Of a DNA stretch of 47,095 nt, positions 9,843-27,589 are shown in pieces. The stretch lies in NCBI GenBank assembly GCA_904395865.1, contig CAJFNY010000058.1:1-47095 (forward strand). Direction: 5' to 3'. The notes under the pieces were generated by a model. The model was not told the origin of the DNA, searched no databases, and saw only the letters and a program-made list of their open reading frames with translations. A program made the position numbers and the translations under genes. The stretch comes from an uncultured Oscillospiraceae bacterium. GTDB taxonomy: Bacteria > Bacillota > Clostridia > Oscillospirales > Oscillospiraceae. The stretch's first letter is position 1; each line of letters begins with the position of its first letter.

Positions 9843-10709
9843 ATGAACCAGGCACCCGATTTCCAGGCCATGCGCCGCCTCAGCGCCGACATCCGGAAGG
9901 AGACGACCCGGGCCATCGGCGCCGCAGGCTTCGGCCACATCGGCGGCTCGGCATCCATTGCGGACGTGCTGGCCGTCCTGTACGGCGGGGCCATGCGGAT
10001 TGACCCGGCCAATCCCGGATGGGAGGACCGGGACTGGCTGGTGCTCTCCAAGGGGCACTGCGGCCCGGCGCTGTACGCCGTCCTGGCCCTGCGGGGCTAC
10101 TTCCCCATGGAGTGGCTCAAGACCGTCAACCAGCCGGGCACGCGCCTGCCCAGCCACGCCGACTGCCGCAAGACTCCCGGTGTGGACATGACCACCGGCT
10201 CCCTGGGCCAGGGCATGTCCTCCGCCGTGGGCATCGCCCTGGGCAACCGCCTCCGCGGCCGGGACAGCTACACGTACTGCATTCTCGGCGACGGCGAGCT
10301 CAACGAGGGCGAGGTGTGGGAGGGCGCCGAGGCGGCCAACCACCTGGGGCTCGACCACTTCATCGCCTTCGTGGACTGGAACAAGAAGCAGCTGGACGGC
10401 CGGCTGGAGGACATCTGCCGCCCCATGGACATCGAAGAGAAGTTCCGCGCCTTCGGCTTTGACGCCCGGACGGTCTGCGGCTGGGATGTAGAGGCCATCT
10501 GGAACGCCATCCAGGCGGCGAAGGCCGTGCCCGGCCGGGCCCACGTGATCGTGCTGGACACCATCAAGGGCCTGGGCGTCCAGCTGGCGGAGGAGCAGGA
10601 GTTCAACCACTATCTGAACTTCGGCCCGCAGGAGGCGGAGGCCGCCTGCGAGGAGATCGACCGCCGCATGGCGGCGGGGACGTATCCGGGAGGTGATTTC
10701 AAATGGTAA
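9843..10709 (+). CDS. Transketolase, N-terminal subunit
   Basis: ThDP-binding region GDGELNEGEVWEGAEAANHLGLDHFIAFVDWNKKQLDG; GSLGQGMSSAVGIALGNRL. Confidence 0.9.
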   Translation: MNQAPDFQAMRRLSADIRKETTRAIGAAGFGHIGGSASIADVLAVLYGGAMRIDPANPGWEDRDWLVLSKGHCGPALYAVLALRGYFPMEWLKTVNQPGTRLPSHADCRKTPGVDMTTGSLGQGMSSAVGIALGNRLRGRDSYTYCILGDGELNEGEVWEGAEAANHLGLDHFIAFVDWNKKQLDGRLEDICRPMDIEEKFRAFGFDARTVCGWDVEAIWNAIQAAKAVPGRAHVIVLDTIKGLGVQLAEEQEFNHYLNFGPQEAEAACEEIDRRMAAGTYPGGDFKW

Positions 10710-11668
10710 CGCTGCGCGATTCCATCCAGGTTGCACCCGAGGAGATGCGTCACGCCTACTGCAACGCGCTGATTGAAGCCGCCCGGCGGGACGAGCGGAT
10801 CGTCGCCATCGACTGCGACCTGAGCAACTCCTGCGGCACGAAGGCCTTCCGAAAGGCGTTCCCCGGCCGCGCGTTCAATGTCGGCATCGCCGAGCAGAAC
10901 GGCTGCGCCATGGCCGGCGGCCTGTCGGCAGCGGGGATGATCCCCTTCTTCCACACGTTTGCCGTGTTCGCCACCCGGCGCGTCTACGACCAGATCTTCC
11001 TCAGCTGCGCCTACGCGGGCCAGAACGTCAAGATCATCGGCTGCGACGCCGGCGTCAGCGCCGCCTTCAACGGCGGCACGCACATGGCGTTCGAGGATGT
11101 GGGCCTGATGCGCGTCATGCCGCACGTGACGATCGTGGAGCCCTCGGACCCGGTCATGATGCGGTCCATCGTGCCGCAGGTGGCTGAGACGCCCGGCGTG
11201 TTCTACCTGCGGATGCCGCGTAAGACGGTCTATCAGCTGTATGAGGAGGGCTCGTCGTTCACCATCGGCCAGGCGGCCGTCATCCGCCCCGGCAGCGACG
11301 TGACGCTGATCGCCGTGGGCATGGAGGTCGTCCAGGCGCTGCGGGCCGCGGAGCAGCTGGCGGCGGAGGGGATCTCTGCCCGGGTGGTGGACATGTTCAC
11401 GATCAAGCCCCTGGACACCGACTGCGTCTGCCGCTGCGCGGCGGAGACGGGTGCCATCGTCACCTGCGAGAACGAGAGCATTCTCGGCGGGCTGGGCAGC
11501 GCCGTGGCGGAGACGCTGGCGGAGCACTGCCCCACGCCCATGGAGTGGGTGGGCGTCCGCGACGAGTTCGGCGAAGTGGGGCCCCAGAGCTACCTGGAGG
11601 AGCGCTTCGGGCTGACGGCGCCGCACATCGCGGAGGCTGCACGCCGCGTGCTCCGGAGAAAAGGCTGA
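10703..11668 (+). CDS. Transketolase, C-terminal subunit
   Basis: Pyrimidine-binding/C-terminal transketolase motifs (FNVGIAEQNGCAMAGGLSAAGMIPFFHTFAVFATRR; THMAFEDVGLMRVMPH); overlaps the N-terminal subunit gene. Confidence 0.9.
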   Translation: MVTLRDSIQVAPEEMRHAYCNALIEAARRDERIVAIDCDLSNSCGTKAFRKAFPGRAFNVGIAEQNGCAMAGGLSAAGMIPFFHTFAVFATRRVYDQIFLSCAYAGQNVKIIGCDAGVSAAFNGGTHMAFEDVGLMRVMPHVTIVEPSDPVMMRSIVPQVAETPGVFYLRMPRKTVYQLYEEGSSFTIGQAAVIRPGSDVTLIAVGMEVVQALRAAEQLAAEGISARVVDMFTIKPLDTDCVCRCAAETGAIVTCENESILGGLGSAVAETLAEHCPTPMEWVGVRDEFGEVGPQSYLEERFGLTAPHIAEAARRVLRRKG

Positions 11669-11700: not shown

Positions 11701-13221
11701 ATGGGTGAAGTAATTCGGAAGCAATACTGCGTCAACGGCCAGTGGAAGGACTCCAAGACGGACCGGTGGATGGAGGTCACGGATTCTTCCACCGGCGAGG
11801 TCATCGCCGAGGTCCCGTGCTGCACGGCGGACGAGGTGGAGGAGGCCATCGCCGCGGCCCACGCCGCGTTCCCGGAGTGGTCGATGATGTCCCTGAGCAA
11901 GCGGACGCAGATGCTGTTCAAGTGGCGCAACGTCCTGATGGACCACCTGGAGGAGCTGACGTACCTGTGCGCCAAGGAGCTGGGCAAGAACCTCAGCGAG
12001 GCCCGCGGCGACGTGCTCAAGGCCATCGAGCCGACGGAGCTGGCCTGCTCCGCGCCGTACATCACCCAGGGCAGCGCCTCGCTGCAGGTCACGACCGGTT
12101 TCGACACGGCCACGTACCGCATGCCGCTGGGCGTCGTGGCGGGCATCGTCCCCTTCAACTTCCCGGCCATGATCCCCTGGGGCTGGATGGTCCCGCTGGC
12201 CATCGCCACCGGCAACACCGTCGTCCTGAAGGCGGCCTCCTTCACGCCGCTGACCTCCATGCGGATCCTGGAGCTCTTCTATGAGGAGGGCGGTTTCCCC
12301 CGCGGCGTCGTGAACCTCGTCACCTGCAGCCGCAAGGAGTCGGAGCTGTTCCTGACGGACCCGCGGGTCAAGGCCGTCACCTTCGTGGGCTCCACGGAGG
12401 TCGGCAAGCACATCTACTCCGTGGCGGCCGCTCACGGCAAGCGCGTCCAGGCCCAGTGCGAGGCCAAGAACCACGCCCTGGTGCTGGAGGACTGCGACCT
12501 GGAGAGCACCGTCAACGCCGTCATCAACTCCACGTACGGCTGCGCGGGCATGCGCTGCATGGCCCTGCCGGTCATCTGCGTGCAGGAGAGCATTGCCGAC
12601 CGGTTCGTGGCGATGCTGAAGGAGAAGGCCATGGCCATGAAGGTCGGCTGCGCCTACGACCCCGAGACGAAGCTGGGCCCCGTGGTCAATGCCAAGCATC
12701 GGCAGTTCATCTGCGACTGGATCCAGAAGGGCGTCGACGAGGGCGCCGAGCTGGTGCTGGACGGGCGGAACATCGTCGTTCCGGGGTATGAGAACGGCTT
12801 CTTCGTCGGGCCTACGATCCTCGACCACGTGAAGCCGGGTATGACCGTGGGAGACCGGGAGATCTTCGGGCCTGTGACCGTCATCAAGCGCGTCAAGAAC
12901 TTCGAGGAGGGCCTGGCCATCATGAACGCCAACCCCTTCGCCAACGGCTCGGTGATCTTCACCCAGAACGGCTACTACGCCCGCCAGTTCGAGCTGCTGA
13001 CCGACGGCGGCATGGTGGGCATCAACGTGGGCATTCCGGTGCCCTCGGCCTACTTCCCGTTCTCGGGCAACAAGGATTCCTTCTTCGGCGACCAGCACGT
13101 GCTGGGCCTGGACGGCGTGCGGTTCTATACCCGCGCCAAGACGGTTACGAAACACTGGTACGACGAGCACTCCCGCAAGCGGGTCATGGACACCTGGGAG
13201 GGCACCGTCGAGCGGATCTGA
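11701..13221 (+). CDS. Aldehyde dehydrogenase, methylmalonate-semialdehyde dehydrogenase (MmsA/IolA)-like
   Basis: GVVAGIVPFNFPAMIPWGWMVPLAIATGNTVVLK, FVGSTEVGKHIY, catalytic-Cys motif GCAGMRCMA. ORF-track start 11545 overlaps the transketolase gene; ATG 11701 follows a GGAGG-type SD. Confidence 0.85.
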   Translation: MGEVIRKQYCVNGQWKDSKTDRWMEVTDSSTGEVIAEVPCCTADEVEEAIAAAHAAFPEWSMMSLSKRTQMLFKWRNVLMDHLEELTYLCAKELGKNLSEARGDVLKAIEPTELACSAPYITQGSASLQVTTGFDTATYRMPLGVVAGIVPFNFPAMIPWGWMVPLAIATGNTVVLKAASFTPLTSMRILELFYEEGGFPRGVVNLVTCSRKESELFLTDPRVKAVTFVGSTEVGKHIYSVAAAHGKRVQAQCEAKNHALVLEDCDLESTVNAVINSTYGCAGMRCMALPVICVQESIADRFVAMLKEKAMAMKVGCAYDPETKLGPVVNAKHRQFICDWIQKGVDEGAELVLDGRNIVVPGYENGFFVGPTILDHVKPGMTVGDREIFGPVTVIKRVKNFEEGLAIMNANPFANGSVIFTQNGYYARQFELLTDGGMVGINVGIPVPSAYFPFSGNKDSFFGDQHVLGLDGVRFYTRAKTVTKHWYDEHSRKRVMDTWEGTVERI

Positions 13222-13324: not shown

Positions 13325-14350
13325 ATGATTACGAATCCATACCTTTCCTGGCTCAGCCAGACGGCGTCCTGGTGGTGGAACGACAGCGCCGTGCTGTCGT
13401 CCATGGACGCGGCCATTGCCAACGGCGCCACCGGCGTCACGACGAATCCGCTGCTGGTCAAGCGGGCGCTGTACGGCGACCCGGACTACTGGCGCCCCAG
13501 AATCCAGAGCGCCCGGCCGCTCTGCGGCGACGCCAGGGCCGAGGAGATCATCCGGTGCGTCACGGTGGAGATCGCCGAAAAGTTCCAGCCCATCTTTGCG
13601 CAGACCGGCGGCCGCCAGGGCTACGTCTGCGCCCAGGTGAACCCCAAGAAGCAGGGCGACGACGAGGCCATGGTGGAGATGGGCCGCCGGCTGGCCGCCT
13701 GGGCGCCCAACATCGCCGTGAAGCTGCCGGCCACGGCCGCCGGCCTCCGGGCCATGGAGGCGCTGGCCGCCGAGGGCATCACCACGGTGGGCACGGTGAG
13801 CTTCACGGTGGGGCAGGTGGTGGCCGTCGCGGCGGCGCAGCAGCGGGGGCTGGAGCGCTGCCGGGCGGCCGGCGGCCGGCCCGGCCGGGCGTTTGCCGTG
13901 CTGATGGTCGGCCGGCTGGACGACTACCTGCGGGACGTCATCCACGACGCCGCCGCGCCGGTGCCGGAGCGCGCGATCATCCAGGCCGGCACCGCCGCCA
14001 TCAAGAAGGCGTACGCCATCTGCCGCGACCGGGGCTACGACGCGGAGCTGATGCCCGCCGGCATGCGCGGCGGCTACCACGCCGTGGCCCTGGCCGGCGC
14101 GAAGATGAGCATGTCGCTGTCCGACGGCATCCAGGCGGCCCTGGCCAAGGAGACGGCCTTCGTGCCCCACATCGACGACCCGGTGGACGCAGAGGACCTG
14201 CGCCTGCTCCAAACCGTCCCGGAATTCGTCCGCGCCTACGACGAGGAGGCCCTGCCGCCGGCGTCGTTCATCACGTACGGCGCAACCCAGCGGACGCTGT
14301 CCCAGTTCGTGGAGGCGGGCTGGGGCCCCATCGCCGACTTCCCTCTGTGA
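13325..14350 (+). CDS. Transaldolase-family protein
   Basis: ATGVTTNPLLVKRAL, catalytic-Lys motif NIAVKLPATAAGLRAMEALAAEGI, GTVSFTVGQ. Confidence 0.8.
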   Translation: MITNPYLSWLSQTASWWWNDSAVLSSMDAAIANGATGVTTNPLLVKRALYGDPDYWRPRIQSARPLCGDARAEEIIRCVTVEIAEKFQPIFAQTGGRQGYVCAQVNPKKQGDDEAMVEMGRRLAAWAPNIAVKLPATAAGLRAMEALAAEGITTVGTVSFTVGQVVAVAAAQQRGLERCRAAGGRPGRAFAVLMVGRLDDYLRDVIHDAAAPVPERAIIQAGTAAIKKAYAICRDRGYDAELMPAGMRGGYHAVALAGAKMSMSLSDGIQAALAKETAFVPHIDDPVDAEDLRLLQTVPEFVRAYDEEALPPASFITYGATQRTLSQFVEAGWGPIADFPL

Positions 14351-14378: not shown

Positions 14379-16676
14379 ATGACGCCCCATTATCCCATTG
14401 GCGCCGATATTCCCCGCAAGGACGGCAAGGCCAAGGTTACGGGCCGGGCCAAGTACGGCGCCGACTGGAACCTCAGCGGCCAGCTGTACGCCGCCGTCTA
14501 CCACAGCCCCATCCCCCACGGGCGCATCCTGCGTCTGGACGTCACCAGGGCCCGCGCCCTGCCGGGCGTGCGCTGCGTGCTGACGGGCGCGGAGTGCGGC
14601 CAGCGCCACGGCCAGTTCATCGCCGACCAGCCGATTCTGGCGGTCGACAAGGTCCGGTACGTGGGGGAGCCCGTGGCCGCCGTGGCCGCGGACACCCTGC
14701 GGATCGCCAAGGAGGCCGTAGCGCTGATCGAGGCCGAGTACGAGCCGCTGCCGGTGGTGGACTCCATCGAGGACGCGCTGGCCGCGGAGAGCCTCGTCCA
14801 TGAGGACTGGTCTCAGTACACCATCTACGGCCTGACGCACCCCGTCCCCGGCAGCAACATCATCGACCGGTATCAGCTGATCCGCGGCGACGTGGAGCAG
14901 GGCTTCGCCCAGGCGGACGTGATCGTGGAGAGCGACTTCTACTGCAGCATGCTGCAGCACGTCGTCATGGAGACCCACGCGGCCCTGGCCGACGCCACCG
15001 ACGACGAGCTGGTCATCTACTCGCCGGCCCAGTCGCCCTTTACGGTCCGGGCGGCCATCGCCCAGTGCCTGGGCTACCGCTACGACCAGGTGCGCATCGT
15101 CTGCACCGAGATCGGCGGCGGCTTCGGGTGCAAGGCGGAGCCGAAGCTGGAGCCCATCGTGGCGGTGCTGTCCCGGGCGGCCCGCCGGCCGGTGAAGCTC
15201 GTGTACGACCGCCACGAGGAGTTCGAGGCCACCGTGACCCGGGCGCCCTGCAAGTTCCACCTGAAGACCGGCGCCACCCGCGACGGCAAGCTCACCGCCC
15301 AGCAGATCACCGTCTGGTGGGACACCGGCGCCTACGGCACGTACGGCCCCCGCGTCAACTACAACGCCGGCTACGCCTCCAACGGCCCCTACGCCATCCT
15401 CAACTGCCACACCGACGGCTACTGCCTGGTGACGAACCACTCACTGGGCTCGGCCTACCGCGGCTTCGGCGTCTCGGAGGTGGCCCAGGCCCATGAGACC
15501 CAGATGGACGAACTGGCCGACCGGCTCGGCATGGACCCGCTGGAGTTCCGCCTGAAGAACGTCCTGCGGGACGGCAGCGTCAGCGTCACCGGCGAGGTCA
15601 TGGAGAGCGTCGGCGTGGCCCAGTGCCTGGAGGCGGCCGCCGCCAACCTGGACTGGGACCGGAAGCCCCGCCGCTGGATCACGCCCGACGGCATGCTCCA
15701 CGGCAAGGGCATCGCCTGCTTCATCAAGCTCACCGGAACGCCGTCCACCACCTCCTGCCTCCTGCGGATGAATGAGGACGGCTCGCTGATCATCGAGTCG
15801 GCCAGCCGGGAGATGGGCCAGGGCGTCCTGACGGTGCTGCCGCAGTTCGCCGCGTCGGTGCTGGGCCTGGATCTGGACCGGATCGTCGTGGCGCCGGTGG
15901 ACACCGCCATGGTGCCCTACGACAAGACGACCACCTCCAGCCGCTCCACCTTCCACAGCGGCAACGCCGTGCTGGAGGCCGCCGGGGAGATCCTGCGGCA
16001 GCTGAAGGCCCTGGTGGGCCGGAAGTGGGGCGTTCCGCCGGAGGACGTGCAGTTCCAGGAGGGGCTCTTCTCGGACGCCGCCGGCCACCGCCTGCACATC
16101 AACGACGTGGGCAGCAGCGGCCTGCTCAAGGAGGAGCCGCCGGTGATGGCCGTGGGCCGCTTCGGCTCCAAGGACGTGTTCGACCCGCCGGACGCACACA
16201 CGCACGCCTCCAGCCGGCCGACGATCATGTGGATGATGGGCGCCCAGGCGGCCGAGGTGGAGGTCGACCCCCGGACGGGCCACGTCCGTGTCGTCCGGGT
16301 CGGCGCGGCCCACGACGTGGGCAGGGCCGTCAACCCGCTGGGCTGCCTGCAGCAGATCGAGGGCGGCATCGTCATGGGGATGGGCCACGCCCTGCTGGAG
16401 GAGATGATCTACCGGGACGGCGTGCTCCGGAACGGCAATATGGTGGACTACAAGGTTCCCACCTCCATGGACGCCGGCATTGACTGCAGGATCACCCTGG
16501 TGGAGGTGCCCCATCCGGAGGGCCCCTACGGTGTCAAGGGCATCGGCGAGCCCGCCGTGGCCCCCACCTCTCCGGCCATCAGCAACGCCGTCAGCGCCGC
16601 CTGCGGCCATCGCTTCCGCAGGATTCCCATCAAGCCGGAGGATATCCTGTCTGCAAAGGAGGACGCGGCATGCTGA
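14379..16676 (+). CDS. Xanthine dehydrogenase-family molybdenum hydroxylase, molybdopterin-binding large subunit
   Basis: GKAKVTGRAKYGAD N-terminus, CTEIGGGFGCKAEPKLEPIVAVLSRAARRPVKL, GSAYRGFG, C-terminal GIGEPAVAPTSPAISNAVSAACG with candidate active-site Glu. Confidence 0.9.
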   Translation: MTPHYPIGADIPRKDGKAKVTGRAKYGADWNLSGQLYAAVYHSPIPHGRILRLDVTRARALPGVRCVLTGAECGQRHGQFIADQPILAVDKVRYVGEPVAAVAADTLRIAKEAVALIEAEYEPLPVVDSIEDALAAESLVHEDWSQYTIYGLTHPVPGSNIIDRYQLIRGDVEQGFAQADVIVESDFYCSMLQHVVMETHAALADATDDELVIYSPAQSPFTVRAAIAQCLGYRYDQVRIVCTEIGGGFGCKAEPKLEPIVAVLSRAARRPVKLVYDRHEEFEATVTRAPCKFHLKTGATRDGKLTAQQITVWWDTGAYGTYGPRVNYNAGYASNGPYAILNCHTDGYCLVTNHSLGSAYRGFGVSEVAQAHETQMDELADRLGMDPLEFRLKNVLRDGSVSVTGEVMESVGVAQCLEAAAANLDWDRKPRRWITPDGMLHGKGIACFIKLTGTPSTTSCLLRMNEDGSLIIESASREMGQGVLTVLPQFAASVLGLDLDRIVVAPVDTAMVPYDKTTTSSRSTFHSGNAVLEAAGEILRQLKALVGRKWGVPPEDVQFQEGLFSDAAGHRLHINDVGSSGLLKEEPPVMAVGRFGSKDVFDPPDAHTHASSRPTIMWMMGAQAAEVEVDPRTGHVRVVRVGAAHDVGRAVNPLGCLQQIEGGIVMGMGHALLEEMIYRDGVLRNGNMVDYKVPTSMDAGIDCRITLVEVPHPEGPYGVKGIGEPAVAPTSPAISNAVSAACGHRFRRIPIKPEDILSAKEDAAC

Positions 16677-17536
16677 ACGCGTTTGAGCTGTACACCCCGG
16701 CCACCGTGGAGGAGGCCTGCCGCTGCCGGGCGGAGACCGGCGGCACGCTCCTGGCCGGCGGCACGGACGTCCTGGTGGCCATGCACGGCGGCAAGGCCCA
16801 TGCGGTGCTGATCGACCTGAAGGGCCTGGCGCCGCTGCGGGGCATCCGGGAGACGGAGACCCATTGGCACCTGGGCGCCCTGACGCCCCACTACGCCATC
16901 GAGGCCGACCCGGTCTGGCGCGCCAGGTGCACGTGCCTGTACGAGGGCTGCTCCCAGGTGGGCTCCGTCCAGATCCGCCACCGCGGCACCCTGGGCGGAA
17001 ACCTCTGCAACGCCGTCCCCTCGGCCGACAGCGCCGGCCCGCTGCTGGCGCTGGACGCAGTCTGCCGCATCGCCTCGCCGGCGGGCGTACGCGACGTGCC
17101 GCTGACGGAGTTCTTCCTGGGCGCCCGGCGCACGGTGCTGGGGCCAGACGAGCTGCTGCAGGAGATCGTGGTGCCGAAGCCGGCGCCCCACACGGGCAGC
17201 TGCTACATCAAGTACACCCGCCGCCGGGCCATGGATCTGGCCCTCTGCGGCGTCACCGTCCTGGTCACGCTGGACGGCGGCCGGATCGCCGCGGCCCGGG
17301 TGGCCCTGACCACCGCTGCGCCCACGCCGATCCGTGCCCCCGGCGCAGAGGCGTACCTCCAGGGGCGGCAGGCAGACCGGGTGGATCTGGCGGAACTGGG
17401 GCGGCGGACCGCGGCGGACGCCAGCCCGCGCACCAGCTGGCGCGCCTCCACGGAATTCCGCCTGACGCTGCTGCAGGAGCTGGCCGGCCGTGCCTTTACG
17501 ACGGCGCTGGCCCGGGCGAAGGAGGATCCCACATGA
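16670..17536 (+). CDS. Xanthine dehydrogenase-family FAD-binding subunit
   Basis: LLAGGTDVLVAMHGGK and QIRHRGTLGGNLCNAVPSADSAGPLLAL motifs; overlaps neighbours at ATGCTGA and ATGA. Confidence 0.9.
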   Translation: MLNAFELYTPATVEEACRCRAETGGTLLAGGTDVLVAMHGGKAHAVLIDLKGLAPLRGIRETETHWHLGALTPHYAIEADPVWRARCTCLYEGCSQVGSVQIRHRGTLGGNLCNAVPSADSAGPLLALDAVCRIASPAGVRDVPLTEFFLGARRTVLGPDELLQEIVVPKPAPHTGSCYIKYTRRRAMDLALCGVTVLVTLDGGRIAAARVALTTAAPTPIRAPGAEAYLQGRQADRVDLAELGRRTAADASPRTSWRASTEFRLTLLQELAGRAFTTALARAKEDPT

Positions 17537-18000
17537 GAAGCAAGGAAATCCAGGTGACGGTCAACGGGGAGCTGTACCTCCGTACCGTCTCCGTGTCCAC
17601 GACCCTGGCCGAGTTCCTGCGGGAGGACCTGGGCATGACCGGCACGAAGATCGGCTGCAACGAAGGCGAGTGCGGCGCCTGCACCGTCCTGTTCAATGGG
17701 GAGCCGGTGAACTCCTGCCTGGTGCTGGCCGTGGAGGCCGACGGTGGCACGGTCCTGACCGTGGAGGGCCTGGCCGGCGACGAGCTGCACCCGCTGCAGC
17801 AGGCGTTCCTGGACGTGGGCGCCGTGCAGTGCGGCTTCTGCACGCCCGGCATGCTGCTCAGCGCCAAGGCGCTGCTGGACCGGAATCCCCATCCGGATGA
17901 GGCGTTCATCCGGAAAAACATCGAGGGCAACATCTGCCGCTGCACCGGCTACGACCGGATCGTCCAGGCGATCCTGCTGGCGGCAGAGCGGATGTCGTAG
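17533..18000 (+). CDS. Xanthine dehydrogenase-family [2Fe-2S] subunit
   Basis: CNEGECGACTVLFNGEPVNSC and CGFCTPGMLLSAKALL...NICRCTGYDRIVQAI cluster motifs; ATGA overlap with FAD subunit. Confidence 0.92.
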   Translation: MRSKEIQVTVNGELYLRTVSVSTTLAEFLREDLGMTGTKIGCNEGECGACTVLFNGEPVNSCLVLAVEADGGTVLTVEGLAGDELHPLQQAFLDVGAVQCGFCTPGMLLSAKALLDRNPHPDEAFIRKNIEGNICRCTGYDRIVQAILLAAERMS

Positions 18001-18049: not shown

Positions 18050-18078
18050 TTGACAATCTTTATGCACTTAGCTATACT
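18050..18078 (+). promoter_or_regulatory. Promoter of split-dikinase operon
   Basis: TTGACA (18050-18055), 17-bp spacer, TATACT (18073-18078). Confidence 0.85.
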
Positions 18079-18090
18079 GCTACCTAGAGA

Positions 18091-18122
18091 CGATTATCAT
18101 AATCGATAATCGAAAATCGATC
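18091..18122. promoter_or_regulatory. Putative operator array sharing half-sites with 9778-9797
   Basis: CGATTAT-C-ATAATCG palindrome (18091-18105), then ATAATCG and AATCGAT repeats immediately downstream of the promoter. Confidence 0.7.
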
Positions 18123-18203
18123 AAAAGAGGAACACCGCAATCCGGATGGCCATCCGACCGGCGCCGGCACCTGCCGGCAACCACAAAACAAGGAGGAAAA
18201 CAC

Positions 18204-19898
18204 ATGGCGGAGCGCAAAATCTATGCAACGTTCTTCGGCGACGAAAAGCATCCGGTCCACTGGGAAAGCGAGGAAGAGAAGCAGCTCATGTGGTGGTACG
18301 ACGACCTCCACTGCCCGAATCCCATTTCCCCCATGTACTTCAGCTGCGGCGGCTGGTGGGGCCCCACCTGCAAGTATTTCTACAAGCGCTTCGGCGTCGG
18401 CGGCTACGACTGGCCGGCCAAGAAGATCGGCGGCTACGTCTACACGGCCGTCGTCCCGCCCAAGACGCCGGCCGACCAGGTGGACGGCATGAACGCCTAC
18501 TACAACGCGGTCATGCCCATCTACGCCGAGACCTTCATCGACCAGTGGGAAAAGGAATACGTTCCCGAGCTGGTGGCCATCGCCGACAAGATGGTGGACT
18601 TCGACTTCGAGCACAAGACCATCCCCGAGGCCATGATCCACCTGGAGGACTGCCTGGATATGCAGGAGCGGGCCTTCCGGATCCACTGGATCCTGAACTT
18701 CGCCCAGGCCCAGGCCTCCGGCGAGTTCCAGGCCATCTACCAGAAGGCCGTCGGCCCCATCGACGAGGACTACTCTCTGATCACCGTCTCGCCCGATGAC
18801 CGGAACTGGGAGTCCCTCCGGGACGCCTGGCAGATCAAACAGGAGATCTGCGCCGACCCGGCGATGAAGGCCTTCTGGATGGAGCACGACGCTGCCGCCA
18901 TCCAGCAGAAGCTGGCCGACGTTCCCGGCGGCAAGGCGCTGCTGGAGAAGATCCAGGCGTACACCCAGGAATACGGCTGGAAGCCGCTGTGGACCCATGA
19001 GTACATCTACAAGCTGTGGATCGAGGATCCGACGCCCATCTACGAGGCCATCAAGGGCTACGTGGAGACCGACTACGACTACCCCTCCCAGATTGAGGCG
19101 TGCCACAAGTCCCAGAACGACGCCATTGCCCGCGCCCGGGCGCGGATCACCGATGAGAGCCTCCGGGATGAGTTCGAGAAGAAGATGGCCATCAACATGA
19201 AGATGCTGCCGCTGACCCCGAACCACCACTTCTTCATCGACCAGTCCATCTACGCCCACATGCGCATCATGTTCCTGGGCATCGGCGACATGCTGGTCCG
19301 GGCGGGCAAGCTGGACGACCGCGAGGACATCTTCATGGTGACGTACGACGAGCTGCGCGCCGGCGCCTGCTCCGACTACGACCTGAAGTCCAAGGTGGTG
19401 CAGGCCCGCGCCGAGATGGCCGAGGCCGCCAAGCATCCGCCGCGCTACTGGTACGGCACCGTGGACGAGTGGTCCCTCCACGAGGAGATCTACAAGCAGA
19501 TCCTCTGGGGCTATCCCGACGTGTTCTACAAGTCGCTGGAGATGGAGAAGGCCGAGGCCGAGGGGAGCGGCGAGGACCGGATCCTCAAGGGCGTGCCCGG
19601 CTCCGCCGGCATCGTCGAGGGAACCGCCCGCGTCGTGTCCAACCCGAAGGAGTTCGACCAGCTCCAGAAGGGCGACATCATGATCTGCCGGATGACGAAC
19701 CCCGGCTGGATCATCTCCTTCTCCAAGATCTCCGGCCTGGTGACGGACACCGGCGGCGCCCTGTCCCATCCGGCGGTGGTCTCCCGGGAGTTCGGCATCC
19801 CCTGCGTCGTGGGCACGGTCAACGCCACCCAGCGCATCCGGACCGGGGACCACATCCGCGTCGACGGCGACAGCGGCCAGGTGGAAATCCTCAGCTGA
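18204..19898 (+). CDS. PEP-utilizing-enzyme/dikinase subunit: acceptor-binding region plus phosphohistidine swivelling domain (phenylphosphate synthase alpha-like)
   Basis: C-terminal motif VTDTGGALSHPAVVSREFGIPCVVGT (His about residue 522 of 564); upstream ~450 aa rich in aromatics (WWYDDLHCPNPISPMYF); partnered with a PPDK_N gene. Confidence 0.8.
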   Translation: MAERKIYATFFGDEKHPVHWESEEEKQLMWWYDDLHCPNPISPMYFSCGGWWGPTCKYFYKRFGVGGYDWPAKKIGGYVYTAVVPPKTPADQVDGMNAYYNAVMPIYAETFIDQWEKEYVPELVAIADKMVDFDFEHKTIPEAMIHLEDCLDMQERAFRIHWILNFAQAQASGEFQAIYQKAVGPIDEDYSLITVSPDDRNWESLRDAWQIKQEICADPAMKAFWMEHDAAAIQQKLADVPGGKALLEKIQAYTQEYGWKPLWTHEYIYKLWIEDPTPIYEAIKGYVETDYDYPSQIEACHKSQNDAIARARARITDESLRDEFEKKMAINMKMLPLTPNHHFFIDQSIYAHMRIMFLGIGDMLVRAGKLDDREDIFMVTYDELRAGACSDYDLKSKVVQARAEMAEAAKHPPRYWYGTVDEWSLHEEIYKQILWGYPDVFYKSLEMEKAEAEGSGEDRILKGVPGSAGIVEGTARVVSNPKEFDQLQKGDIMICRMTNPGWIISFSKISGLVTDTGGALSHPAVVSREFGIPCVVGTVNATQRIRTGDHIRVDGDSGQVEILS

Positions 19899-19908
19899 CG
19901 CATCCAGC

Positions 19909-19934
19909 CGCGTGGGGAGCGCGCTCCCCACGCG
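19909..19934. repeat. 26-nt perfect intercistronic palindrome
   Basis: CGCGTGGGGAGCG/CGCTCCCCACGCG between the two dikinase genes. Confidence 0.7.
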
Positions 19935-19968
19935 CCATCCAAAGCAGAAAGATTCGAGGTTTTGAAAA

Positions 19969-20922
19969 ATGCGTTTGATTGCTTGGTTCGATGAGCTGCC
20001 GGAGGAGAACCTCGGCCTCGTCGCCGGCGGTAAGGGCGCCAGCCTCTGCCGGATGTTTCAGAACGGCTTTCCCGTGCCGGAGGGATTCATCGTCTGTTCC
20101 GGGATGTACAGCCGCTTTATGGAAGAGAACGGCCTGTGGGAAAAGGTATACGCCAAACTGGAGGAGATCGACTGGGACTCGGGCGAAAGCCTTGCCAGGA
20201 CGGGTGAGGAGATCCGCCGGATGATCGCGGAGGCGCCCATGTCCGACGAGATGGCGCAGCTGCTGGTGGAGCACTACCGCCAGCTGGGGGACCGCGCGCC
20301 GGTGGCCGTCCGCTCCAGCGGCACGGCCGAGGACCTGGACGACGCCAGCTTCGCCGGGCAGCAGGAGACCTACCTGTACGTCATCGGCGAGGACGAGGTG
20401 GTCCGCTACGTCAAGGAGTGCTGGGCCTCCCTGTACAACGACTGCGCCATCTTCTACCGCCGGGAAAAGCGGTTCGACGAGCGGGAGATCGCCATCGCCG
20501 TCGTCGTCATGCGGATGGTCAACTCCGAGAAGTCGGGCGTCTGCTTCTCCGCCAACCCCATCAACAAGTCCCGGGAGACGTGCATGATCGAGGCGGCTTG
20601 GGGCCTGGGCGAGGGCGTGGTCCAGGGCATTGTGAACCCGGACAACTACGTGGTGCGCAAGAGCGACTTCGGCTACGACATGCGCCACGTCTCCGTCAAG
20701 GAGATCATGGTGCTCCGCGCCGGCGAGCGCGGCGGCAGCAAGGAGGTCCCCGTGCCGGCGGAGCGGCGGGAGCAGCCCGTCCTGAGCGACGACGAGGTCC
20801 GCGATCTAGTGCAGCTGGCCATGCGGGTGGAGACCTTCTACGGAAAGCCCCAGGATCTGGAGTGGGCCTACGAAAACGGGAGGATGTATCTGCTGCAGGC
20901 GCGGCCCATCACGACGCTCTGA
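19969..20922 (+). CDS. PEP/pyruvate-binding (PPDK_N) ATP-grasp subunit of split dikinase
   Basis: GGKGASLCRMFQNGFPVPEGFIVCS, VAVRSSGTAEDLDDASFAGQQETYL, C-terminal PQDLEWAYENGRMYLLQARPIT. Confidence 0.9.
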   Translation: MRLIAWFDELPEENLGLVAGGKGASLCRMFQNGFPVPEGFIVCSGMYSRFMEENGLWEKVYAKLEEIDWDSGESLARTGEEIRRMIAEAPMSDEMAQLLVEHYRQLGDRAPVAVRSSGTAEDLDDASFAGQQETYLYVIGEDEVVRYVKECWASLYNDCAIFYRREKRFDEREIAIAVVVMRMVNSEKSGVCFSANPINKSRETCMIEAAWGLGEGVVQGIVNPDNYVVRKSDFGYDMRHVSVKEIMVLRAGERGGSKEVPVPAERREQPVLSDDEVRDLVQLAMRVETFYGKPQDLEWAYENGRMYLLQARPITTL

Positions 20923-20977
20923 GCAGCGGACCGCCGGCAATCATCCGCGCCTTCCAAGCTGAATGGAGGTAAACAGC

Positions 20978-21514
20978 ATGACGATGAAAAAGCAGCTTCT
21001 CTACGCGATCCTGACCGCCATCCTCGCGGGCGTCGTGACGTACGTGACCCAGGCCATGTCCGGCTGGCCCATCCCGGCCTGCGCCGGCAACGGGCTGACG
21101 TACATCTGCTTCATCTGCTGGGCCTGCTACTTCGTGTGCGGCTGCAATGTGAAGGGCGCCATCAACTGGTTCCTCTCCATGGCCGCGGGCGTCGTCGCCG
21201 GAATCCTGATGTTCGTTCTGACCTTCGCCTTCCAGGGCGCCATGGGCTACCTGCTGGCCGTCTCGGTGGCGGTGGTCATCCTCGTGATTTTCATGATGTT
21301 CTACGACCGCGTGAAGCTCAGCGGCGCGGGCGTGTTCGTGGGAACGGGCCTGTTCTTCTCCCTCAACGCCGCCGGCGCGCTGACCACCTTCACCGTCTCC
21401 GACTACCTGCTGGTGGGCGGCACGGAGCTCCTGTACGCGGCCATCGGCCTCGTGGCCGGCTGGCTGACCATCTGGTTCAGCAGTCTGGTGACGCGCACCA
21501 AGGGCGGCCAATAA
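20978..21514 (+). CDS. DUF1097-like small integral membrane protein
   Basis: Five to six hydrophobic segments in ~178 aa. ORF-track ATG 20963 is part of the SD (ATGGAGGT), so 20978 is preferred. Confidence 0.5.
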   Translation: MTMKKQLLYAILTAILAGVVTYVTQAMSGWPIPACAGNGLTYICFICWACYFVCGCNVKGAINWFLSMAAGVVAGILMFVLTFAFQGAMGYLLAVSVAVVILVIFMMFYDRVKLSGAGVFVGTGLFFSLNAAGALTTFTVSDYLLVGGTELLYAAIGLVAGWLTIWFSSLVTRTKGGQ

Positions 21515-21526
21515 CCGCGGCGCAAC

Positions 21527-21554
21527 GCGCCGGCGGGCCCGTTCCCGCCGGCGC
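21527..21554 (+). terminator. Intercistronic hairpin
   Basis: GCGCCGGCGGG-cccgtt-CCCGCCGGCGC, 11-bp stem, T-rich ccctttt shortly after. Confidence 0.5.
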
Positions 21555-21593
21555 CATCCCTTTTGGAAACTGCACGGATTTTAGGAGTGTATC

Positions 21594-21995
21594 ATGATGT
21601 ATCCTGTGATTCACGAAACTGAAGTGGAAGAAAAAAAGGCCCCCGGCCGCTATCTGCGGTGGGTCGTGGACACCCAGAGCGGACTGCCGGGCCGCTGCTG
21701 CTCCTGCTGCATCATGCGCGTGGAGCCCGGCCAGACCGTCTCGCCGGCCCACTGCCACCCCGGCGGCGAGGAGATGTTATATATTCTGGAGGGGTCCGGG
21801 ACGGTCTACATCGACGGCATTCTCTACCCCTTCCGCGCCGGCAGCGTCGTACTCTTTGAGCAGGGCAAGATCCACATGGTCCGCAACACCGGCGACGAGC
21901 CGCTGAAGGTGGCCTGCTTCTTCGCACCGGCCGCAAATCTGGATTCCTATGAGTACCACCCCGAGGTGGACTTCGACGGAGGGCACACGCCATGA
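21594..21995 (+). CDS. Cupin-domain protein
   Basis: Cupin motif 1 HCHPGGEEMLYILEG and motif 2 FRAGSVVLFEQGKIHMVRN. Confidence 0.85.
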   Translation: MMYPVIHETEVEEKKAPGRYLRWVVDTQSGLPGRCCSCCIMRVEPGQTVSPAHCHPGGEEMLYILEGSGTVYIDGILYPFRAGSVVLFEQGKIHMVRNTGDEPLKVACFFAPAANLDSYEYHPEVDFDGGHTP

Positions 21996-23035
21996 GACGA
22001 GACAATCCCCTGTACGGCTTTTCCATTCAGCCGGAGGACCTGCACTACGTCGGCCACGACCTGCAGCGGCCCGAATGCATTCTGGCCGAGCCGGACGGCA
22101 GCCTCTGGGCCGCCGACGCCCGGGGCGGCGTCGTGCACATCCGGCCCGACGGCAGCCAGCAGATCATCACGCAGAAGCACGACGGCGGCCTGAAGCCGGA
22201 TAAGGACGTGGACCGCTTCTTCAACGGCACGCTGCCCAACGGCCTGGCCTTCGCCCGGAGCGGCGACATCCTGATCTCCAACTTCGGCACGGACTGCCTG
22301 GAGATCATGCGGCGCACCGGCGAGACCCGCGTCCTGGTGGACACCATCGACGGGAAGCCCATCGGCAAGGTCAACTTCGTCCTGCGGGATTCCCGGGACC
22401 GGGTCTGGATCACCGTGACCACCATGAAGAAGAACTGGATCGACGCGCTGGTGCCCGACCTGGACGACGGCTACATCGCCCTCTACGACGGCCGCAGCCT
22501 CCGGGTCGTGGCCGACGGCCTGCACTTTACGAACGAGGTCCGCTTCGACGCCCGGGAGGAGTACCTCTACTGCGTGGAGACCGTCGGCGTGCGGGGCGGC
22601 CGTGTGGTCCGCTTCCGCTGCGACGGGCAGGGCAATCTCTCGGGCAAGGAGGTCTACGGCCCCTCGGAGTGGGGGCAGGGCGCCTATCCGGACGGCATTG
22701 CCTTCGACAGCTACGGCAACCTGTGGGGCACCATGGTCTATTCGGACAAAATCTTCGTCATCGACCCCGACGGCGAGGGGACGATCCTCTTCGACGCCGG
22801 GGACCACGAGAAGGTCCAGGCCCTGGACGACGCCTTTTACGCCAGCCGCGTGACGAACGAGATCCTCTTCGCCACCGGCCGCGGGCCCGCGCCGTGGACG
22901 GCCAGCGTCTGCTTCGGCGGCCCGGACCTGCGGAACGTCTACATCGGCTCCCTGCGCGCCACGAACATTCCCTGGTTCCGCGCACCAGTGGCGGGGCTGC
23001 CCATGGTGCACTGGAATGAAGGGAGGAAGCCATGA
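21992..23035 (+). CDS. SMP-30/gluconolactonase/LRE-family lactonase-like protein
   Basis: PECILAEPDGSLWAADARGGVVHI, NGLAFARSGDILISNFGTD, PDGIAFDSYGNLWGT beta-propeller motifs; ATGA overlap with cupin gene. Confidence 0.8.
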   Translation: MRRDNPLYGFSIQPEDLHYVGHDLQRPECILAEPDGSLWAADARGGVVHIRPDGSQQIITQKHDGGLKPDKDVDRFFNGTLPNGLAFARSGDILISNFGTDCLEIMRRTGETRVLVDTIDGKPIGKVNFVLRDSRDRVWITVTTMKKNWIDALVPDLDDGYIALYDGRSLRVVADGLHFTNEVRFDAREEYLYCVETVGVRGGRVVRFRCDGQGNLSGKEVYGPSEWGQGAYPDGIAFDSYGNLWGTMVYSDKIFVIDPDGEGTILFDAGDHEKVQALDDAFYASRVTNEILFATGRGPAPWTASVCFGGPDLRNVYIGSLRATNIPWFRAPVAGLPMVHWNEGRKP

Positions 23036-24120
23036 ACGAGACCATGAAGGCCATCCTGCTCCGGGGCCCCAACGACTTCGTCTACTGCGACGTGCCGAAG
23101 CCGTCCCCCGGCGAGTACGAGGTGCTCTGCCGGGTGGAGTCCGTCTCCATCTGCGGCACCGACCCGCACATCATCCAGGGGGATTTCCCCGGCGTCTGGC
23201 CCCAGTCGTTCCCGCTGATCCCGGGGCACGAGTGGTCCGGCGTCGTGGTGGCGCTGGGAGAGAAGGCCGACTGCTTCGGCTGGAAGGTGGGCGACCGGGT
23301 CTGCGGCATCGCCAACCTGGGCTGCGGCCACTGCAAAAACTGCATGGAGGGGCGCTTCACCATCTGCCTCAACTACGGCAACCAGAAGGTGCACCGGATG
23401 TACGGCCACATCTCCCCCGGCGCCTACGCCGAGTACATCGCCGTCAACATCCGTTCCATCTCCAAAATCCCGGACGAGATGGACTTTGACACCGCCTGCA
23501 TCATGGACACGCTGTCCATCGCCCTGCACACGGTCCTGCACAGCCATCTGGAGCCGGGCGACGACGTGCTCGTCAACGGCGCCGGCGCCCAGGGCTGGAT
23601 GTCCATCCTCTGTGCCCGGGCCATGGGCGCCAACCGGATCTTCTGCTCCGGCAGCGGCAACCGCCTGGCCAAGGCCGCGGAGCTGGGGGCCATCCCCATC
23701 GACTACCGCAAGGAGGATCTGGTGGAACGCATCCGGGCGGAGACCGGGGGACTGGGCGTCAAGCGCGTGATGGAGTGCACCGGGACGGTCCAGGGCGTCC
23801 GGAACGCCTGCTGGACTGTGGCCCGCGGCGGCTGCATCTCGGTCATCGGCTTCCCCAAGGATGACGTGCCGATCCCCATCAAGCACCTGGTCATGGACGA
23901 GATCGAGCTGGTGGGCAACCGGGCCAACCCGAACACGCTGGACAAGGCGATCTCCATCGCCAGCAAGTGCCTGGACGATCTCCGGGGCCTCATCACCCAC
24001 GTGTTCCCCCTGTCCGAATACCGCAAGGCGTACGAAATCTTTACCACCCGGGCCGACCATTCGCTGAAGGTCGTCGTCAAGCCCCAGTGGAAGGAACCGA
24101 ATGGAGGAGTGCAGAAATGA
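23032..24120 (+). CDS. Zinc-dependent MDR alcohol/polyol dehydrogenase
   Basis: ESVSICGTDPHIIQGD, IPGHEWSGVVVALGEKA, structural Zn CGHCKNCMEGRFTIC. Confidence 0.9.
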   Translation: MNETMKAILLRGPNDFVYCDVPKPSPGEYEVLCRVESVSICGTDPHIIQGDFPGVWPQSFPLIPGHEWSGVVVALGEKADCFGWKVGDRVCGIANLGCGHCKNCMEGRFTICLNYGNQKVHRMYGHISPGAYAEYIAVNIRSISKIPDEMDFDTACIMDTLSIALHTVLHSHLEPGDDVLVNGAGAQGWMSILCARAMGANRIFCSGSGNRLAKAAELGAIPIDYRKEDLVERIRAETGGLGVKRVMECTGTVQGVRNACWTVARGGCISVIGFPKDDVPIPIKHLVMDEIELVGNRANPNTLDKAISIASKCLDDLRGLITHVFPLSEYRKAYEIFTTRADHSLKVVVKPQWKEPNGGVQK

Positions 24121-25016
24121 ACGAGTTTTCCGCCCAGCTGAGCAGCGGCAAGGCCGCCATCCGCTTCGACATCCTCGGCGGCCCGGCCCGCGACCGCATC
24201 GTCGAGGACGACACGTTTCTCAACTACCGCCTGGGCGCCGTGGAGATCACCGACCGCGTGACCCGGGAGAAGCCCGACATCCTCTGGAACTACGACGACC
24301 CGGTCAAGTCCATCGTCTACCAGGACGCACAGCTGCGGCTGGGCGGCTTCTGGGAGGAGGGCGAGCTCAACAAGATCATGGTGACGATGCTGGCCAACGA
24401 AATGGACCGGTGCGGCCTGCACCCGTTCCACTCCTCCAGCGTCGTCTACCACGGGAAGATGATCCTCCTGGTGGGCGGTGAGAACAACCACGGCAAGTCG
24501 ATGACGCAGCTGGAGGGCTGCCGCCGCGGCGCGCAGGTGTTCTCCACCGAGACCACCGTCACCGACGAGGACGGGCTGGCCCTCTACGGGTCCAAGAATC
24601 TCTACATCCGCAAGCGCGCCAAGGGCACCGAGCGCAGCGACCTGCCGGATCAGGACCAGGGCGTGGCCAAGTTCTTCGACCGCGAGCCTGAGATGGTCAT
24701 GTGCTACGAGCCGCACCGCGTCGACCTGGCCATCATGCCCTGCATCGACGGCCACTTCGACACCCAGGTCACGCCCATGAACCAGTTTGAGGCGTCGTAC
24801 CAGAGCTACCATTCACTGATGAACTTCTTCGGCCTCAACCAGCTGCTGTGCGGCAAGTACGGCCTGGCCATGCCCATCGTGGACACCGACGAGCGGCGGC
24901 AGGCCCGCGCCCGCTTCTGCGCCCGGTTTGCCGGCGGCCGGCCGTACTACATGGTGCGCGCCAAAACGCCGCAGATCGTCTTTGACGAGATCGACAAGAT
25001 CCTCGAAACCCTCTGA
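24117..25016 (+). CDS. HPr-kinase-like P-loop protein of unknown function
   Basis: HSSSVVYHGKMILLVGGENNHGKSMTQLEGCRRGAQVFSTETT resembles the HprK C-terminal layout (His, P-loop GxxxxxGKS, RGA...); ATGA overlap with ADH gene. Confidence 0.55.
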   Translation: MNEFSAQLSSGKAAIRFDILGGPARDRIVEDDTFLNYRLGAVEITDRVTREKPDILWNYDDPVKSIVYQDAQLRLGGFWEEGELNKIMVTMLANEMDRCGLHPFHSSSVVYHGKMILLVGGENNHGKSMTQLEGCRRGAQVFSTETTVTDEDGLALYGSKNLYIRKRAKGTERSDLPDQDQGVAKFFDREPEMVMCYEPHRVDLAIMPCIDGHFDTQVTPMNQFEASYQSYHSLMNFFGLNQLLCGKYGLAMPIVDTDERRQARARFCARFAGGRPYYMVRAKTPQIVFDEIDKILETL

Positions 25017-25020
25017 GGCC

Positions 25021-25797
25021 GTGCTGACCGACCGCATCGAGGTGGACACCCACGTCCACTCCGTCCTGTCCGGCCACGCCTGGAGCACGCTCCGCGAGGA
25101 CGTGCGCCAGGCCCGCCGGGCGGGCCTCCGGGCCATCTGCCTGACGGAGCACAGCAGCGCCACGCCGGGCGCGTCCCCGGAGTGGACGCCGCTGTCCATG
25201 CAGATGCTGCCGGAGGAGGACGAGGGCATCCGGATCTACCGCGGGCTGGAGGCCGACGTGCTGGACGACACCGGCCGGCTCTGCCCCCGGGCGGCGTACC
25301 TGGAGGGGCTGGACTTCTGCATCGCCAGCATGCACCTGGTCGCCTGCGGCTGCACCCGCGACGCCGACGCCTGCACGGAGACGTGGCTGCGCGTGCTGGA
25401 CAATCCGCTGGTGAACGCCCTGGGCCACATCGACCGGGCAGCCTTCCCCTGCGCGCTGGAGCCCATCGTCCGCCGGGCCCGGGAACGCGGCGTGCTGATC
25501 GAGCTCAACAATGCCTCCATGATCCCCATGCGGGACGCCGGCCGCGAAAACGCCATCCGGCTGGCCGGACTGTGCCGGCGGTATGAGGTGCCGGTCTGCG
25601 TCGGCAGCGACGCCCACTATCACACCATGGTGGGCGATTTTTCGCTGCTCGGGCCGCTGCTGGAGTCGCTGGACTTCCCGGCGGAGCTGATCGTCAACCG
25701 GACCGTCGCCGCCTTCGACCGCTACCTCGCCGAAGCCAACCGCCGTAAGAAAAGGAGCGTTGACCATGCAGAAACTGACCGAACACGTCTATACTGA
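25021..25797 (+). CDS. PHP-domain hydrolase (YcdX-like)
   Basis: DTHVHSVLSGHAWSTL, LTEHSS, IASMHL, GHIDRA, VGSDAHY metal-ligand motifs; GTG start at 25021. Confidence 0.8.
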   Translation: MLTDRIEVDTHVHSVLSGHAWSTLREDVRQARRAGLRAICLTEHSSATPGASPEWTPLSMQMLPEEDEGIRIYRGLEADVLDDTGRLCPRAAYLEGLDFCIASMHLVACGCTRDADACTETWLRVLDNPLVNALGHIDRAAFPCALEPIVRRARERGVLIELNNASMIPMRDAGRENAIRLAGLCRRYEVPVCVGSDAHYHTMVGDFSLLGPLLESLDFPAELIVNRTVAAFDRYLAEANRRKKRSVDHAETDRTRLY

Positions 25798-26629
25798 AAC
25801 GCAGATCCGCGGCTGCGACCCGAGCATCATCCTGACGCGGGAGGGCGCCGTGTTCATCGACACGGCCCAGTGGATCACCAACCTGGAGCAGATGATCGCC
25901 TTCGCTCAGGAGCGGGCCGGGTCCATCCGGTATCTGATCAACACCGAGTCCCACATCGACCACATCTTCGGGAATCACTGGCTGAAGAAGGCCGGTGCCA
26001 CCATCATCGGCCACGAAAAGATCCTCGATTCCTTCTTCAAGATCCCCGCCGCCTTCCACATGACGACCCACGACTACAACGTCGACATCATCCGCCGCCA
26101 GGACCCGGAGGCCCTGGACCGGATGCCGTCGGAGGCGGAGTACTGCATCGCCACGCCGGACATCACGTTCTCCGAACGGCTGACGCTGAAGCTGGGGGAC
26201 CACACGTTCCACTGCGTCCACACGCCCGGCCACTCGCCGGAGCAGGTCAGCGTCTACGTGCCGGAGGAGCGGTGCGTCTTCGTCGGCGACAACATCTTCA
26301 ACGACTGCCAGATCTGGCTCCACACCGCCGACTTTGACCAGCTGTTCGCCAGCCTGGACTGGCTGCAGGGGCTGGATGTGGACTACATCGTCCCGGGCCA
26401 CGGCCCCGTCCGCGGCAAGTCGTGCATCGTGGAGAACAAGCAGTTCCTCTACGACTGGCTGGCTGCCGTGTCCGAGGGCATCAACCGCGGCTGGAGCGAG
26501 GAGGAGTGCGTGGCGCGGATCAGCTTCGCCGACCGCTGCCCGGTGGACATCGGGCAGGCCGAGTGCATGGAGTACATCCAGACGAACAACGTCCGCCGGA
26601 CGTACGCCTACCTGATGGGCAAGCGCTGA
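25766..26629 (+). CDS. Metallo-beta-lactamase-fold hydrolase with altered first motif
   Basis: INTESHIDHIFGN, HTPGHSPEQVSVYVPEERCVFVGDNIF, YIVPGHGPV; ATG 25766 preceded by AAAGGAG. Confidence 0.85.
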   Translation: MQKLTEHVYTETQIRGCDPSIILTREGAVFIDTAQWITNLEQMIAFAQERAGSIRYLINTESHIDHIFGNHWLKKAGATIIGHEKILDSFFKIPAAFHMTTHDYNVDIIRRQDPEALDRMPSEAEYCIATPDITFSERLTLKLGDHTFHCVHTPGHSPEQVSVYVPEERCVFVGDNIFNDCQIWLHTADFDQLFASLDWLQGLDVDYIVPGHGPVRGKSCIVENKQFLYDWLAAVSEGINRGWSEEECVARISFADRCPVDIGQAECMEYIQTNNVRRTYAYLMGKR

Positions 26630-26641
26630 GGAGGAGTCGCC

Positions 26642-27589
26642 ATGAAACTGGAGCATGTGAACAGAATCGCCATCGTCGGCACCGGCATGATCGGGGCCAG
26701 CCTGGCCACGCTCTTCACCGGCCACGGCTATGCCACCACCATGCTGGCCCTCAACGACCGGGAGGCCGCCGGCGGCCTGGAGCGGTACCGCACCAACTTT
26801 GCCGACCTGATCGCCGAGGGGCTGGTGACGGCGGCCCAGGCGGACGCCTGCGAGCGGCTGCTCTCCATCACCCAGACGTACGACGATCTGGCCGACGCCG
26901 ACTTCGTCTACGAGTGCGTCGTGGAGGACCGGGACGTCAAGTACCAGATCTACGCCCAGCTGGACGCCCACTGCGACCGGGTGCGCGGCATCTCCTCCAC
27001 GTCCTCGGCCATGGACACCGACCTGCTCTGCGGCGGCTTCACGCGCCACCGGGCCAAGTTCGCCGTGGCGCACCCGTGGAACCCGCCCCATCTGGTGCCG
27101 TGCGTGGAGATCGTCCGGGGGAAGGAGACCGACGAGGCGGCGCTGCAGTTTATCTGCCAGGTGCTGGAGTCGGTGGGCCGGGCGCCGGTGGTCATGAACC
27201 GCAGCGTCCCGGGCTTCGTGGCCAACCGCCTGCAGCACGCGCTGTACCGGGAGGCGGCGTACATGGTGGAGCAGGGCATCGCCAGCCCGCAGGATATCGA
27301 CCGGGCGCTGCAGACGAGCTTCATCCCGCGGTATACGGCCGTGGGCATCTTCGAGCACTTCGACTACGCCGGCCTGGACATGATCCGGAGCATCGAAGAG
27401 ACGCTGTACCACGACCTGTGCGATACCAAGGAGCCGCACCGGATGATCGTGGACCACTGTGCGCGGGGAGAGCTGGGTTGCAAGACCGGCCGCGGCGTGC
27501 TAGACTGGTCCCACGTGGATGTGGACGCCTACCGCAAGCGCGCGGCGGCGCCGTATCTGAAGTTCTTCAACTGGAGCCTCCCGGAGTGA
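26642..27589 (+). CDS. 3-hydroxyacyl-CoA dehydrogenase/L-gulonate dehydrogenase-family NAD(P) oxidoreductase
   Basis: IAIVGTGMIGASLATLFTGHGY Rossmann motif, SSTSSAMDTDLL, AVAHPWNPPHLVPCVEIVRG, GFVANRLQHALYREA. Confidence 0.85.
   Translation: MKLEHVNRIAIVGTGMIGASLATLFTGHGYATTMLALNDREAAGGLERYRTNFADLIAEGLVTAAQADACERLLSITQTYDDLADADFVYECVVEDRDVKYQIYAQLDAHCDRVRGISSTSSAMDTDLLCGGFTRHRAKFAVAHPWNPPHLVPCVEIVRGKETDEAALQFICQVLESVGRAPVVMNRSVPGFVANRLQHALYREAAYMVEQGIASPQDIDRALQTSFIPRYTAVGIFEHFDYAGLDMIRSIEETLYHDLCDTKEPHRMIVDHCARGELGCKTGRGVLDWSHVDVDAYRKRAAAPYLKFFNWSLPE

Follow-up and report, generated by a model that had tools for sequence, protein, structure and literature searches.

Two-component dikinases without the C-terminal PEP/pyruvate TIM barrel are a recently described group: in 2025 the hydroxyphenylethanone dikinase HpeHI was placed together with CreHI (4-cresol) and PpsAB (phenol) in a subfamily of barrel-less, two-component small-molecule dikinases (PMC12167813). 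The characterised members of this subfamily phosphorylate phenols, and the related single-chain enzyme RPH phosphorylates rifampin (PMC12167813). A first-pass annotation of the DNA studied here, a contig of 47,095 nucleotides from an uncultured Oscillospiraceae bacterium (the window), pointed to a similar pair of genes; after the 2025 description, its barrel-less two-protein layout is no novelty. The choice of PpsAB and RPH as comparators was apt, since PpsAB has the same two-protein layout and RPH the matching fold. Among open-licence papers we found none on the clade to which the first gene of the pair belongs, or on its locus.

Results

The dikinase pair

Judging from its domains, the pair is likely a two-component small-molecule dikinase. 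Gene 1 (564 aa, 18204-19898, + strand) would be the 'H' component and gene 2 (317 aa, 19969-20922, + strand), a stand-alone ATP-grasp protein, the 'I' component; positions and lengths agree with those first assigned (stop codons are counted in the ORFs), and a 70-base gap separates the two ORFs, which do not form a single chain. In gene 1 an acceptor-binding domain (about residues 1-455) is followed by a phosphohistidine swivel domain (about residues 460-564) with His522. The swivelling motif reported at the outset, TDTGGALSHPAVVSREFGIPCVVGT, is present, and PF00391 (residues 488-558, E 1.5e-24) is the sole Pfam match at E<=10. Gene 2 is likewise matched at E<=10 by one family only, the PPDK_N domain PF01326 (residues 19-316, E 2.9e-106), as had been proposed, and its assignment is also supported by blastp against reference proteins.

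The barrel, said in the first-pass annotation to be missing from both proteins, is indeed missing: an HMM search with PF02896 gave no match in gene 1, in gene 2 or elsewhere in the draft genome, which has 2.37 Mb and is 87% complete, and the same search matched in 14/14 control genomes. Therefore, within the 87% completeness, no third protein of the draft supplies a barrel. Apart from gene 2, the genome has no PPDK_N protein of full length but only a fragment, on contig C23; no paralogue of gene 1 was found in it. The catalytic motifs of gene 1 are intact: the swivel motif has the form TxxGGxxxH, the catalytic His is preceded by Ser, a feature shared with PpsA and CreH, and His522 is invariant across 30 aligned relatives. 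The regulatory Thr, whose lack is one of the published criteria (PMC12167813), is absent from the pair.

A sigma-70-type promoter-like site, TTGACA-17-TATACT, with 11/12 consensus matches lies upstream of gene 1 (18050..18078, + strand). It opens a segment (18050-18123) that continues as an A+T-rich stretch with GATTATC/ATAATCGATAATCGA repeats, possibly an operator. Between the genes, at 19911-19934, there is a perfect hairpin (GCGTGGGGAGC/GCTCCCCACGC), through which the relative amounts of the two proteins may be set.

Fold of gene 1

The AlphaFold2 model of gene 1, built with 30 relatives as input, has a mean pLDDT of 90.9 and a pTM of 0.89. The only PDB entries that match it across most of its length are those of RPH (5FBT: TMq 0.68, 20% identity over about 600 columns), whereas the match to PPDK is confined to about 120 residues of the swivel domain. 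RPH is also the top match in a search with a profile of the clade. The same picture was given for HpeH, which is about 20% identical to RPH and is matched by PPDK in the swivel domain only (PMC12167813). The model thus indicates an RPH-like acceptor domain and not a barrel remnant. The N-terminal region of some 450 residues to which acceptor binding had been ascribed stands as an acceptor part, with the correction that it spans about residues 1-455 and is mostly helical.

A separate clade

The reference proteins were all picked by gene context and are proxies, not named reference strains: Azoarcus KH32C (L106) for PpsA, with ppcABDG downstream; Rhodococcus (L107, L111) for CreH, recognised by P450 and aldehyde dehydrogenase genes; and Rhizobium (L109) for HpeH, recognised by biotin carboxylase genes. 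Haloarchaeal types were included as well. By blastp over the full length, the PpsA- and CreH-type proteins share 24-26% identity with gene 1; for the HpeH type the figure is about 30%, in the C-terminal half only. Gene 2 shares about 41% identity with PpsB/CreI-type proteins. Within its own clade, which comprises Bacillota, Spirochaetota, Chloroflexota, Thermomicrobiota and archaea, gene 1 shows 36-74% identity.

The phylogeny against PpsA-type proteins that had been proposed as a check was carried out by maximum likelihood. It placed gene 1 in a clade of its own (support 100/99), apart from the PpsA/CreH/HpeH-type clade (100/100), for which about 45% identity among members was the yardstick; the branches of this tree are long and its deeper order is not fixed. 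The differences fixed between the clades lie in the acceptor domain, around a helix with a conserved His that reads TPxHHFxxDQ in the gene 1 clade and xExHxFYxEHW in the other. Since the acceptor domain is only 24-26% identical to proteins of the characterised types, a phenolic acceptor cannot be read across; the domain is too diverged for a shared proven substrate.

In Thermomicrobium roseum both clades are represented, by one member each, on a single plasmid, and its PpsA-type dikinase pair (L108:6998-15474) likewise has an XDH-family Mo enzyme within a few kb. An HD-domain protein beside the Rhodococcus CreHI-type cluster (L111:1086-1697) is about 30% identical to Thermomicrobia HD/DUF4202 proteins (E 2e-4).

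The conserved locus

The most informative evidence is the conserved locus around the pair, which the first-pass annotation did not include. In the window all of its genes described here lie on the + strand. The three subunits of an XDH-family oxidoreductase precede gene 1: the molybdopterin subunit (14379..16676), with orthologues in most dikinase loci, the FAD subunit (16670..17536) and the [2Fe-2S] subunit (17533..18000; PF01799 and PF00111). Further upstream are a split transketolase (9843..11668; N half 9843-10709, C half 10703-11668), common to locus L054, and an MMSDH-type aldehyde dehydrogenase (11701-13221) and a divergent transaldolase (13325-14350), both common to loci L058 and L069. 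Downstream of gene 2, a DUF1097 membrane protein, a cupin, an SMP-30/gluconolactonase and a Zn alcohol dehydrogenase (20963..24120) are common to the nearest relatives, L054-L057. They are followed by a miniature P-loop protein of PEPCK/HprK fold (299 aa, 24117..25016), without a Pfam match and kept in 26 compared loci, a PHP-domain protein (25021..25797) and a metallo-beta-lactamase-fold (MBL) hydrolase (25760..26629), each with relatives in 14 loci, and a 3-hydroxyacyl-CoA-dehydrogenase-type (3HCDH) NAD enzyme (26642..27589), which in the compared loci always stands alongside the MBL gene. The window also encodes a BMP-type ABC transporter. An ARAGORN call of tRNA-Gly(gcc) at 32188-32282 lies within a coding stretch (antisense ORF 32087-33040) and may be a false call.

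A scan of genome contigs yielded 46 loci, which belong to Bacillota, Spirochaetota, Chloroflexota, Thermomicrobiota and archaea. In each, genes were predicted with a codon model fitted to that locus, with the annotated T. roseum record as a check on the gene calls, and were then clustered. The partners of gene 1 were counted in 53 stretches, some of them overlapping, and a gene missing from a partial locus is not thereby missing from the genome: ATP-grasp 42, FAD subunit 35, GntR 34, Mo subunit 33, FeS subunit 33, PEPCK-fold protein 26, cyclase-family hydrolase 21, and MBL, 3HCDH and PHP proteins 14 each. Pairwise identities of gene 1 and of the Mo subunit are correlated (r = 0.92).

Two further pairs of genes alternate: the MBL and cyclase-family hydrolases never occur in one locus among those compared, and the PEPCK-fold protein (37-77% identical in related loci) is never found together with an HD/DUF4202 protein. 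Each alternation is a single change on the tree and may thus be mere ancestry. The model of the PEPCK-fold protein (pLDDT 88) matches PEP carboxykinase (E 4e-8) and HprK (E 3e-5). In four Oscillibacter-type loci (L064, L065, L068, L095; e.g. L095:11007-11639) an adenylate kinase gene lies inside the cluster, between the PEPCK-fold and MBL genes, which indirectly fits AMP as the dikinase product. Enzymes of this kind turn ATP and the acceptor into AMP, Pi and the phosphorylated acceptor and require both components.

Some loci contain malate genes (a LarAH6 malate racemase, above cut-off in L070, malic enzyme, a fumarase-type hydratase and malate dehydrogenase) and some a pyruvate-dehydrogenase-type complex, so the products of the pathway may enter at the level of a C4 acid and acetyl-CoA. 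The combination of the two (L049, L051, L070) may be a lead to ring cleavage of the resorcinol/hydroxyhydroquinone type; among open papers none was found with which to compare it. The Moorella stamsii cluster is flanked by genes for a corrinoid protein, a pterin methyltransferase, RACo and a URO-D methyltransferase (L113, L070:1-2845, L114:9162-10178), which is circumstantially compatible with methoxylated aromatics.

Alternation of Mo and W enzymes

After removal of duplicates, 40 longer loci were compared: the Mo enzyme alone occurs in 30, a tungsten aldehyde:ferredoxin oxidoreductase (AFOR) alone in 6, and both together in none. The tree requires 5 changes between them, of which at least 3 are forced by well-supported branches. 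Such repeated switches argue that the Mo enzyme and the AFOR fill the same role. The AFOR of the loci is nearest to aldehyde oxidoreductases (1AOR), not to BamB. The nearest PDB relative of the Mo enzyme large subunit is HBCR; a reductive dehydroxylation like that of 4-hydroxybenzoyl-CoA reductase (4-HBCR) was nevertheless ruled out, because the FAD subunit lacks the 4Fe-4S loop: it is collinear with CutM without an insertion and has an offset of about 42 residues to 1RM6_B. Purine catabolism, considered for the XDH-type enzyme and the nucleoside-type transporter, was dropped because the combination is not kept in other loci.

Origin of the locus

The locus is accessory, horizontally gained and spread. 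The gene 1 clade occurs in about 4/398 sampled Bacillota genomes; no orthologue of gene 1 was found in six congeners or in the sampled order, and for the Mo subunit the congeners have no orthologue, only paralogues of 31-33% identity. The contig carries at its right end a gene native to the genus. A locus that is missing from the six congeners although the contig end is native points to horizontal gain, and the same native end led us to reject contamination of the draft genome.

Discussion

The reading that we consider probable is that the pair is an AMP-forming dikinase with an enolic or phenolic acceptor, acting early in a catabolism that was acquired horizontally, is mainly anaerobic and includes a Mo/W enzyme. 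Gene 2 would bind ATP, the swivel domain of gene 1 would take the beta-phosphate onto His522, and the phosphorylated swivel would pass it on to a small acceptor bound by the helical N-terminal region of the same protein. The XDH-type molybdoenzyme, or the tungsten AFOR in other lineages, would oxidise the acceptor compound or its product, and dehydrogenases and hydrolases would then degrade the compound. From the evidence above we infer dikinase activity, the class of the acceptor, which is probably an enolic or phenolic hydroxyl, and this order of steps. That the acceptor is a new one is plausible. The first-pass annotation had argued for a new acceptor from the lack of a UbiD carboxylase and a PpsC-type subunit nearby. 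Neither is present in the window, but these absences alone say little, as HpeHI and CreHI also work without either.

One could argue that the acceptor is instead a sugar-like or cyclitol hydroxyl and that its phosphorylated product feeds transketolase, transaldolase and GAPDH/PGK-type enzymes. The split transketolase, the transaldolase, the gluconolactonase and the BMP-type ABC transporter of the window suit such a substrate, as do GAPDH-II and PGK paralogues in L049, L070 and L072, and the SDR is nearest to gluconate/KduD dehydrogenases. However, genes of the sugar type occur in a minority of loci, the core genes (Mo/W oxidoreductase, cyclase-family or MBL hydrolase) are untypical of sugar pathways, and the characterised subfamily acts on phenols and RPH on rifampin (PMC12167813). 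Thus we hold a sugar-like acceptor to be possible, but rather unlikely. Vitamin B6 degradation was considered upon a match of the 3HCDH gene to FHMPC dehydrogenase and was rejected as generic family similarity: several 3-hydroxybutyryl-CoA dehydrogenases rank above it, the match falls far short of the curated cut-off, and the MBL gene has no match to 4-pyridoxolactonase.

It is very improbable that the pair is phenylphosphate synthase proper with phenol as acceptor. The layout and the Ser before the catalytic His are those of PpsAB, and gene 2 shares 42% identity with the PpsB of Azoarcus KH32C; gene 1, however, is only 26% identical to PpsA of the same organism and falls in the other clade, and the window has neither PpsC nor the phenylphosphate carboxylase, the genes found downstream of ppsAB in Azoarcus. 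The RPH fold of gene 1 could also speak for a detoxifying antibiotic phosphotransferase, to which we give a slighter chance still: the enzyme consists of two chains rather than one and sits in a conserved catabolic locus with transporters, a Mo/W oxidoreductase and GntR regulators. That the pair is a decayed or regulatory PEP synthase is hardly credible, even though both domains are kin to PEP synthase by sequence, since the acceptor domain is RPH-like without a barrel remnant, the catalytic motifs are intact and the gene 1 clade is conserved across phyla.

If the preferred reading, an early dikinase step on an enolic or phenolic acceptor, is true, a clade spread horizontally among gut Clostridia, termite Treponema and Moorella as well as Chloroflexota, Thermomicrobiota and archaea, from gut dwellers to heat-loving lineages, marks an undescribed catabolic pathway. 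A more speculative extension, which we regard as doubtful, is that the dikinase would activate a compound of plant or geochemical origin at its ring or enol, that the interchangeable Mo/W enzyme would oxidise it, and that the PEPCK-fold protein would later recover the phosphate as ATP. Such a phosphoryl 'loan' would repay part of the dikinase cost in energy-limited cells; in aerobic relatives an HD-domain protein, a putative phosphatase, replaces the PEPCK-fold protein. The question of the substrate is directly testable, since named strains are among the carriers of these loci: Oscillibacter valericigenes An860, Moorella stamsii DSM 26217, Thermomicrobium roseum DSM 5159, Thermalbibacter longus CFH 74404 and Bacillus canaveralius M4.6.

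Compared with the known systems, PEP synthase and PPDK share the ATP-grasp and swivel domains with the window pair, but have in addition the C-terminal PEP/pyruvate barrel and the regulatory Thr. RPH (PDB 5FBT, 5HV1) has the same fold as gene 1 and as the ATP-grasp part; however, it is a single three-domain chain with 20% identity and serves resistance rather than catabolism. PpsAB has the layout, the catalytic motif and the anaerobic setting in common with the pair and differs in identity (26%) and in the PpsC and phenylphosphate carboxylase that accompany it in Azoarcus KH32C. CreHI, the 4-cresol kinase, has the same layout, the Ser before the catalytic His and a neighbouring oxidative enzyme set, yet its identity is 24% and its route is aerobic with P450 and dehydrogenases, whereas the window has an oxidoreductase of the Mo or W type. 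HpeHI of Rhodococcus rhodochrous GD02 also consists of two proteins, one ATP-grasp and one acceptor/swivel, with an RPH-like acceptor fold, the motif T/SxxGGxxxH, no TIM barrel and no PpsC (PMC12167813); its context of carboxylase and phosphatase is absent from the window. The split layout was already known, and what is new here is the clade and its conserved locus.
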